A stretch of DNA of 24,881 nt from positions 1-24,881 of IMG/VR virus record IMGVR_UViG_3300037517_002795. The stretch is one strand, 5' to 3'. Source of the stretch: a virus. Position 1 is the stretch's first letter, and every line of letters starts with the position of its first letter. Shown piece by piece: positions 16,342-18,737 of the stretch. The notes beneath the pieces are model-generated. The model searched no databases and was not told where the DNA came from. It saw only the letters and a list, made by a program, of their open reading frames with translations. Position numbers and translations under genes: made by a program.

Positions 16342-16770
16342 ATGGCATATAAAACATTATTTAAACCCAAAAATGTAAAAAAATATATTGGTGATTCCAA
16401 TAATATTGTATGCCGATCTTTGTGGGAACGACGTGTTTGCAAATTTTTAGATGAAAACAAAAACATATTAAAATGGTCTTCTGAAGAAATAGTTATTCCA
16501 TATTTAAGCCCAATAGACCAAAAGATACACAATTATTATCCCGATTTTTTAGTTCAATTTAATGATGGAAGTAAAGTAAAAACTTGGTTACTTGAAGTAA
16601 AACCATCAAAACAATTGGTATTAAAAGAAAATAGCAGCAAAAAAGAAAAAATTACATGGATTGTAAATACCGCAAAATGGGAAGCTGCAAAAAATTATTC
16701 TTTAAAAAACAATATGGAATTTAAAATTTTAACAGAAAAAGAAATATTTACTAATGCCAACGCCAACTAA
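16342..16770 (+). CDS. gp4: Head completion nuclease
   Basis: This 142-residue protein (T4 gp4/50 is 150) is needed to finish filled heads before tail joining. It aligns well with gp4: KTLFKPKNVKKYIGDSNNIVCRSLWER, WSSEEIVIPYLSPID.KIHNYYPDF, LLEVKPSKQ, TWIVNTAKWEAAK and a closing MEFKILTEKEIF. The TnsA-like nuclease residues are visible as E29, D68 and the E85/K87 pair (EVK). It is first in the rightward transcript and overlaps the next gene by 17 nt. Confidence 0.93.
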   Translation: MAYKTLFKPKNVKKYIGDSNNIVCRSLWERRVCKFLDENKNILKWSSEEIVIPYLSPIDQKIHNYYPDFLVQFNDGSKVKTWLLEVKPSKQLVLKENSSKKEKITWIVNTAKWEAAKNYSLKNNMEFKILTEKEIFTNANAN

Positions 16771-17371
16771 TCCAATAACTTCAATTAAAACATATTTTGA
16801 AAACCATAATGGTTTACAATTGGCAAATAGATTTTCCGTCTCCTTTGCTGGATTACCCGGAGGTATTTCTATTGGTGATAATTCTGATGGGTTTGTACAG
16901 GCCGAATATATGGCTTTAGGACCAAGAGCACTAAACACTGTACAAGACAATTTAAATGGTTTTGGTTTTGGTAGGTTTGTGCCAAGAAGCCAAGATTTAC
17001 TTAGCGGTGGATTTGGTGTTCAATTAATATTTCCCGTAACAAATGACCATCATCTTATTAAATTTTTTAATGATTGGTTTTCTTACTTTTATAAAAGCCC
17101 CCGCCAAGCTGGTGGTAATCCTTTAAATGTATATAAAATTCCATATTACAATGATGCAGTAAGGCCAGTCACAATGACTGTAAATATGTTAAATCCAAAT
17201 GGTGGTGTTAATAATTCAATAACATTTTATGAAGTTTTTCCTGTAGAGACACAACCAATAGAAATGAGTATGGCCTTTACCGATAAATATTTAAAATATG
17301 CTGTTACATTTGCATACAGAGATTTTGTTCAAACTATAGGAATACAAACACCCAGTAGCCCTGAAGGTTAA
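16754..17371 (+). CDS. gp54: Tail-tube initiator / tube-family protein (gp54-like)
   Basis: This 205-residue protein shows the tube fold pattern: LANRFSVSFAGLPGG, FGVQLIFPV.NDHHLIKFFNDWFSYFY, YYNDAVRPVTMTVNM, ITFYEVFPVETQPIEMSM and a closing KYAVTFAYRDF. The end parallels T4 gp54 (TTFDVTFAYR), the protein joining the cap to the first tube ring. T4 gp54 is 320 residues. Its place next to gp4 and across from gp48 fits. It could also be a third gp19-type tube protein, since gp48, gp54 and gp19 share a fold. The ATG lies inside the gp4 end with no clear ribosome site. Confidence 0.7.
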   Translation: MPTPTNPITSIKTYFENHNGLQLANRFSVSFAGLPGGISIGDNSDGFVQAEYMALGPRALNTVQDNLNGFGFGRFVPRSQDLLSGGFGVQLIFPVTNDHHLIKFFNDWFSYFYKSPRQAGGNPLNVYKIPYYNDAVRPVTMTVNMLNPNGGVNNSITFYEVFPVETQPIEMSMAFTDKYLKYAVTFAYRDFVQTIGIQTPSSPEG

Positions 17372-17379
17372 TAGTAATT

Positions 17380-18060
17380 ATGGATAAAGATGATATTAAA
17401 ACATTGATAGATTCATTAAGTCCCACTTATGAAACTATTTTGCCTGTTTCAGGAAAAACAGTTTTATTTATTCCATTTAAAGTTAAAGATGCAAAAAACA
17501 TCTCAATTATTTTAAATGAACAAAATAAAAAACTTTCATTAATTGCAATGGTAAATTTGCTAAAGGCAAATACAAAGGGAATTAATATTGAAGAACTTTG
17601 TCTTGCAGATGCAGAATACTTGTATTTAAAAATAAGATCTAAAAGTGTTGGCGAACTAATAAATATTAAAATTGGTGAAGAAAAATACAATATAAACATT
17701 GATGATATCAAATGCCGCAATACCCCAACAGAACAAAATTTGTTAATAAAAGATGGTGTTTATGCTGTAATAAAAACACCACAAATAAAAACAATACTAA
17801 ATTCTGATTTTAATGACGAACACTCAGTACTTAAAAAATACATACACACAATAATAATAAAAAATGAAATATTTAATTTAAGTACTTTTGTTCCTGACAC
17901 TCTAAAAGAACTTATAGAAAATTTACCATATTCCTTAATCAAGGATATTCAAGAAATATCAAAAAAACAACCTGAACTATATTTTTCTATTCCAGCAAAA
18001 GATGGAGAAAGAGAGGTGTCAGGTACACTAAATTTTTTTACTTGGCTTCAAACTTCATAG
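17380..18060 (+). CDS. gp26: Baseplate hub / tail assembly protein gp26 family
   Basis: This 226-residue protein matches the T4 gp26 family (Pfam T4 baseplate): KTVLFIPFKVKDAKNISIIL, a helix LSLIAMVNLLKANTKGINIEEL, then DAEYLYLKIRSKSVGE, the family hallmark. T4 gp26 is 208 residues. The C-terminal helices YIHTIIIKNEIF and LPYSLIKDIQEISKKQPELYF resemble tail assembly chaperones. Near its end is a run of seven T at 18033-18039, just before the stop at 18058, with a second frame overlapping (next entry). ATG 17380 has AAGG upstream. It is thought to act in baseplate hub assembly and as a tape-measure chaperone; the latter is inferred. Confidence 0.75.
   Translation: MDKDDIKTLIDSLSPTYETILPVSGKTVLFIPFKVKDAKNISIILNEQNKKLSLIAMVNLLKANTKGINIEELCLADAEYLYLKIRSKSVGELINIKIGEEKYNINIDDIKCRNTPTEQNLLIKDGVYAVIKTPQIKTILNSDFNDEHSVLKKYIHTIIIKNEIFNLSTFVPDTLKELIENLPYSLIKDIQEISKKQPELYFSIPAKDGEREVSGTLNFFTWLQTS
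18033..18040 (+). promoter_or_regulatory. Candidate -1 frameshift slippery site (T7-A)
   Basis: In the gp26 frame this reads AAT TTT TTT ACT, that is X XXY YYZ with T TTT TTT. A -1 slip there changes the next codon to TAC and leads to the 62-residue frame without a stop. The -1 frame is open well upstream of the run. AGG lies 9 nt upstream; no clear downstream hairpin is seen. It is not proven that it slips. Confidence 0.6.
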
Positions 18061-18230
18061 ACCTATTTGACTACTACAAAACTAATTTTTCATTGATAAA
18101 TTATTACAAATGGTCAATCGAAGATATTGAAAATATGATGTTTTGGGAAAGAGAAATTTATATAAATCTTTTGGCTGAAGAAAAACAAAAAGAAAGTCAA
18201 TTAAAAATGTCACAGCAATTTGGTAGGTAA
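18042..18230 (+). CDS. Tail assembly chaperone second frame, probably made as gp26 fusion
   Basis: This is a 62-residue frame in -1 relative to gp26. It overlaps the end of gp26, with a TTG as its only upstream start codon and no ribosome site. Its sequence FIDLFDYYKTNFSLINYYKWSIEDIENMMFWEREIYINLLAEEKQK is the usual form of the short tail-chaperone C-terminus (M.fWERe.Yi..L). By -1 slipping at 18033 it would be translated as a fusion of 220 gp26 residues plus 63, about 283 residues in all, like lambda G-GT and P2 E-E'. It holds the place of T4 gp51. It could also be a separate protein from TTG 18042, which is less likely. Confidence 0.65.
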   Translation: MASNFIDLFDYYKTNFSLINYYKWSIEDIENMMFWEREIYINLLAEEKQKESQLKMSQQFGR

Positions 18231-18233
18231 AAT

Positions 18234-18737
18234 ATGGAAGCAAACAATACGGGATTACCGGAACCAACAAAAGAAACTATAAATGTTGAGCAAGTAGTTC
18301 AAAATTATTTAATTGAGCCAGATATGCTTTTTTCAAATACAGAAAAAGCAACAACAACATTAGGCGAAGTTAAATTTTCAGAAGAAGATTTAAAGCAGTC
18401 AAATGTAAACAATAACTTTCAAAACTTGTCTGCCAGTGGCCAATATATACCACCATTCAACAATTCTGCCAGTTTAAAATTAACAGCACCATCAGTTGTT
18501 TTAGAAAAGCCAATTGAACCTCAAAATGTTTCAAAAAAAGAATTTCAAAATGTTTTAAATCAGTTGACTGGAACTATAAATCCTGCACTTCAAAATCTCT
18601 ATAGTTCAGTATCTGCTGTAATGGAAAAGGGTAAAGATCCAAAAGGATTTACAGAAATTAGACCAACATATAATGGTGATGCATTTTTCTTTGCTGACGA
18701 AGTAAAAAGAACAAGTCAAAAATTTTTATGGTCATAA
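18234..18737 (+). CDS. Hypothetical protein, last gene of gp4 operon
   Basis: This 167-residue protein is not recognised. The N-terminus is acidic and probably disordered (residues 1-90, rich in Asn, Glu, Thr and Ser). A helical region follows (KKEFQNVLNQLTG, ALQNLYSSVSAVMEKG), then a C-terminal block FTEIRPTYNGDAFFFADEVKRTSQKFLWS. ATG 18234 has a TAGGT ribosome site overlapping the stop of the preceding frame. It belongs to the gp4-gp54-gp26 transcript, which suggests a tail assembly or hub accessory part. It is followed immediately by a terminator. No membrane segment is visible. Confidence 0.6.
   Translation: MEANNTGLPEPTKETINVEQVVQNYLIEPDMLFSNTEKATTTLGEVKFSEEDLKQSNVNNNFQNLSASGQYIPPFNNSASLKLTAPSVVLEKPIEPQNVSKKEFQNVLNQLTGTINPALQNLYSSVSAVMEKGKDPKGFTEIRPTYNGDAFFFADEVKRTSQKFLWS

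Follow-up and report, generated by a model that had tools for sequence, protein, structure and literature searches.

A conserved programmed −1 frameshift site predicted to join gp26 to a gp51-like domain in T4-like phages

The window, an IMG/VR record of 24,881 bases considered over its whole length, derives from a distant T4-like phage whose terminase shares approximately 50% identity with the terminases of Synechococcus myophages, and it raises the question of whether a run of T close to the end of its gp26-like gene would permit a minority of ribosomes to slip back by one base and so append a second domain to the gene product. Membership of the T4 baseplate gp26 family was indicated by a match to PF12322 (E=1.2e-26; 94.3 bits relative to a gathering cut-off of 24.5) and a corresponding match to phrog_150 (E=4e-26). 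The AlphaFold model of the protein had a pLDDT of 91. A search by sequence for a solved-structure relative of the window gp26 returned none, and among the 50 PDB matches listed for the model the only entries with a probability above 0.1 were 3fgx (0.51) and 2ob9 (0.35), both non-significant (E 0.8–1.6); these two structures have been described as tail assembly chaperones (PMC9603447). Directly 5′ of gp26 lies a gene for a tail tube-like protein (16754–17371; phrog_45, E=1.6e-12), and tube-like genes also precede gp26 in several relatives. The coordinates of the principal features are collected in Table 1.

Table 1. Features of the predicted frameshift locus in the window
Feature	Position	Strand	Basis
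gp26-like gene (baseplate hub / putative tail assembly chaperone); product in zero frame TAC-N, 226 aa	17380..18060	+	PF12322, phrog_150, AlphaFold
GAGGTG, Shine-Dalgarno (SD)-like, upstream of the putative slip site	18013..18018	+	anti-SD pairing; spacing shared with L006-L010
Slippery heptamer T_TTT_TTT	18033..18039	+	in phase; present in every relative as T_TTT_TTY/A
gp51-like C-terminal domain (TAC-C), encoded by the −1 frame extension	18033..18230	+	phrog_634, hhalign, structure model
TAG ending gp26, zero-frame stop	18058..18060	+	

The gp26-frame codons at the end of the gene read AAT TTT TTT ACT TGG CTT CAA ACT TCA TAG, an in-phase heptamer of the X_XXY_YYZ type that precedes the zero-frame stop and leads into an open and conserved −1 frame, an arrangement characteristic of programmed −1 frameshifting. 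The preliminary description had placed seven T in the −1 slippage phase 19 nt before the stop; the run, its exact position and that of the stop were all confirmed, the intervening distance being 18 nt. Across the genes of the window (7,944 codons), heptamers of the form T_TTT_TTN occur in phase only 9 times, and U_UUU_UUY is one of the heptamers that slip most efficiently in E. coli measurements (PMC4066793).

The −1 frame, open from before the T run, is closed by a TAA at 18228–18230 and, as the preliminary description had proposed, slipping would give access to an open frame, here found to encode a gp51 domain. The extension matched phrog_634 ('baseplate hub assembly catalyst', gp51) with E=4e-18 and, by hhalign, the C-terminus of T4 gp51 with E=8e-11; its model was all-helical (pLDDT 84), and a search by sequence for structure relatives of the domain gave spurious coiled-coil-like matches only. 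The earlier view that TTG is the sole type of start available to this frame also held, TTG codons and no ATG being present ahead of the conserved core. The predicted fusion comprises 220 + 63 = 283 residues, the junction being ...EVSGTLNFF joined to YLASNFIDLFDYYK, from which the predicted junction peptide is EVSGTLNFFYLASNFIDLFDYYK. Directly 3′ of the gp51 domain, the window encodes a 167-residue protein (18234–18737) for which PHROG matches were weak only and a Pfam match was absent.

The relatives examined comprised 88 non-redundant entries, made up of 77 IMG/VR or cyanophage loci and 11 named phages, the latter having Vibrio, Aeromonas, Cronobacter, Sinorhizobium, Pseudomonas, Stenotrophomonas, Caulobacter, Methylophilales and Synechococcus as hosts, with one unassigned. 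A single profile scan of IMG/VR had yielded 80 loci; the count of 77 non-redundant loci becomes 78 when the near-identical L090 is included. The heptamer T_TTT_TT(C/T/A) was retained in all 88, at a distance of 0–18 nt ahead of the gp26 stop, as T6C in 70, T7 in 17 and T6A in one; the corresponding figures for the 77 loci were 64 T_TTT_TTC, 12 T_TTT_TTT and one T_TTT_TTA. Every IMG/VR-scan locus that reached the end of gp26 carried the heptamer together with a gp51 domain in the −1 frame, which extends without a stop upstream across the heptamer. The domain occupied the −1 frame of every non-redundant relative but Synechococcus phage S-SCSM1, in which the heptamer is kept, the −1 frame is broken after it (~1885–1930) and the gp51 ORF lies in the +1 frame with an ATG, a break attributable either to real loss or to sequence error. 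The retention of both T run and phase in relatives, proposed beforehand as a check, was thus borne out with that one exception as to phase, and it corresponds to the conservation expected of a programmed −1 frameshift; as judged from these relatives, it is the decisive point against a chance occurrence of the heptamer.

Because the Phe-Phe pair encoded at this point is itself conserved as protein, the choice of codons was tested separately. At other Phe-Phe pairs of the same loci the T TTT TTY form was used in 15 of 198 cases, and in T4 the pair is kept but coded TTC TTT. By this comparison, the codon choice at the putative slip site is far from background.

Two types of potential stimulator were considered. 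The best 8-mer over GAGGTG in the window pairs with the anti-SD at −9.6 kcal/mol, which places it within the top 0.08% of plus-strand 8-mers in the window, and the GAGG lies 17 nt upstream of the heptamer both there and in L006–L010. This spacing is at the far edge of the stimulatory range for an optional element, SD-like sequences 6–17 nt upstream having proved experimentally stimulatory in bacteria (PMC4066793). Among the relatives, a conserved Glu-Gly pair located before the site was written GAG GGN in 52 of 64 loci, relative to a GAG background of 27%, and coincided with a peak of anti-SD pairing (mean −6.9 kcal/mol). A stricter motif test found an SD in range in 81% of loci compared with 51% of codon-shuffled genes, a moderate excess over that null.

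RNA structure was assessed in 42-nt windows against a protein-preserving codon shuffle. Folding beyond this null was far stronger next to the site than elsewhere (mean Z of −1.96 at +4, with 66% of loci below −1.5), and a five-pair inner hairpin showed 22 two-sided changes where 10.6 were expected, a value reached by 2 of 500 shuffles, with its own register pairing best. In many marine relatives a stem-loop, beginning ~6–10 nt past the heptamer, would probably stimulate the slip. A single consensus structure for all relatives was sought with RNAalifold over 57 loci and rejected, none being returned, because the stems occur in different registers in different lineages. The window itself has no downstream stem (−0.5 kcal/mol); downstream RNA structure is optional, and hence not defining, for bacterial −1 frameshifts (PMC4066793).

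Taken as a whole, the locus is best explained, with a probability of about 0.92, by a programmed −1 frameshift that would yield both gp26 (TAC-N) and a gp26-51 fusion (TAC-NC). Most ribosomes would end at the gp26 stop and release the short chaperone of 226 residues; a minority would slip back one base on the T run, the two Phe tRNAs re-pairing in the −1 frame, read past the stop and append 63 residues to give the 283-residue product, analogous to lambda G/G-T, and the upstream GAGGTG would probably stimulate the event. The explanation is drawn from sequence anatomy, conservation and homology, from which we infer the occurrence and efficiency of the slip and the chaperone role of its products. 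On the same grounds the site is regarded as a real and strongly conserved programmed −1 frameshift site.

The most substantial alternative is that gp51 is a separate small protein, produced by termination-reinitiation or from a start of its own, and that the T run merely records the codon choice of the conserved Phe-Phe pair. In 64 of the 77 loci the −1 ORF does contain an ATG within its first 54 nt, cyanophage gp51 is annotated in databases as a gene in its own right, and an SD near a gene end can serve coupled restart (PMC5009743). Against this, the remaining 13 of the 77 loci, the window and L007–L009 included, have no ATG in that interval, and for the window's own candidate start, a TTG at 18042, the ribosome-site score is weak (−2.9 kcal/mol). 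The SD score before the ATGs where they occur is −1.98, near the random value of −1.65, so that of the separate ATG and ribosome site which the preliminary description had named as contrary evidence, the former was found in many cyanophages, the latter only at near-random strength. SD strength was nevertheless set aside as proof against separate initiation, since the gp26 starts of these phages also score poorly. Also against the alternative are a −1 frame that remains open upstream across the heptamer in every locus except one, the biased Phe-Phe codons, and the loss of the heptamer from phages with two genes. Separate translation in cyanophages appears unlikely from these comparisons, and the alternative as a whole very improbable.

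Slippage of RNA polymerase on the T run, with the fusion arising from mRNAs of altered length, is less probable still: homopolymers can slip in transcription and the window does have seven Ts, but 70 of the 88 relatives have six T followed by C, as against runs of ~9 cited for bacterial transcriptional slippage (PMC5009743), and the phase, SD and stem-loop features suit ribosomes. That the T7 reflects a mistake of assembly or sequencing which breaks a single-frame fusion gene can be given a negligible probability. Homopolymers are error-prone and the run was judged from assembled contigs, but the same T7 is present in five contigs from other metagenomes (L086–L089, with an identical gp26 protein, and L090, at 98%), which makes a homopolymer error unlikely, and the same phase and stop recur in relatives at 42–49% identity.

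T4 itself has, as stated at the outset of this work, separate genes 26 and 51; it lacks a T6/T7 heptamer. Separate full-length genes were likewise found in KARL-1, FL15, Aeromonas 31, phiP4-3, RB43 and KP15, and in all seven two-gene phages both the heptamer and the domain after gp26 were absent. Residues 1–201 of T4 gp51 match PF12322 as gp26 does, with hhalign of the bodies as further evidence, and its C-terminus matches the −1 domain; by this homology, gp51 of the two-gene phages is a gp26 paralogue with the same C-terminal domain. Since T4 gp51 thereby consists of a gp26-like body plus the −1 domain, the T4 pair mirrors the short and long products predicted in the window, although encoded by separate genes. 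Both arrangements occur within the Straboviridae, KVP40, Ah1, VmeM-32 and S13 having the predicted slip and T4, RB43 and others having two genes, a distribution with which a lineage switch, as opposed to a refutation of the slip, would fit. A tentative history, to which we give slightly less than even odds, is that the slip site was ancestral to T4-like phages with a full bacterial cassette (SD, T6Y and a lineage-specific stem-loop), that the window's lineage exchanged the stem-loop for U7 and a stronger SD, and that one branch of the Straboviridae replaced the slip by duplication into 26 and 51.

The abstract of the 2022 paper by Vladimirov, Gautam and Davidson reportedly describes frameshifting as conserved in several T4-like groups, with T4 using genes 26 and 51. 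In P2 E/E′ a C-terminal domain is added by a −1 slip close to the 3′ end of a gene for a tail chaperone, and the slippery heptamer of lambda is G_GGA_AAG, unlike that of the window. Lambda G/G-T (PMC5009743) resembles the predicted system in the same respect as P2, both being set beside the window gene by architecture and not by sequence relation. The gene architecture of the window is one of a short and a long predicted product sharing an N-terminus. The E. coli dnaX cassette is alike in combining a slippery heptamer with an SD before it and a stem-loop after it, as the marine relatives do, and unlike in its A_AAA_AAG heptamer, its different gene and the lack of a stem-loop in the window. At the TAC locus of the Vandenendeviridae and Andersonviridae, a conserved GTTTTT motif and an open −1 frame occur at the end of TAC-N (PMC12846349); these are different phage families, likened by motif and frame and not by gp26 homology. 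In Caulobacter phage Cr30 (1159–3057), gp26 and the gp51 domain are followed by a 249-nt ORF and the tail tape measure protein, a gene order as expected for a putative tail chaperone locus; in the window, no tape measure gene was identified beside gp51.

The earlier suggestion that the slip links gp26/51 with tail assembly chaperones is probably right, but had already been proposed by Vladimirov et al. 2022, as far as is evident from papers citing that work (PMC10885494, PMC12846349), which credit it with identifying the T4-like chaperone genes; one of them attributes to it (Virology 2022;566:9-15) the poly-T slippery sites that T4-like phages have in their TAC-N genes (PMC12846349). The T4-like TAC-N/TAC-NC pair so cited involves the same genes 26 and 51 and the same proposed role. 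The core claim is consequently already known, and the window's lineage is a new member. A literature text search found no earlier report of this frameshift in cyanophages and, with the 2022 paper represented through its citing papers, no description of the stimulator anatomy, which may be new, or of the window's lineage.

Among the records viewed, there was no joined CDS for gp26-gp51. In Aeromonas phage Ah1, Vibrio phage VmeM-32 and Cronobacter phage S13, the gp51 (TAC-C) domain lies in the −1 frame of the ~165 nt after gp26, in an unannotated gap.

On the breadth of this comparison, in most T4-like phages gp26 and 'gp51' would be a single frameshifted gene, which database records present as having a separate gp51 or from which, as in the three phages just named, they omit it. 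The T4 branch, in which two genes appear to replace the slip, would serve as a natural control, and the stimulator elements are sharply defined and testable.
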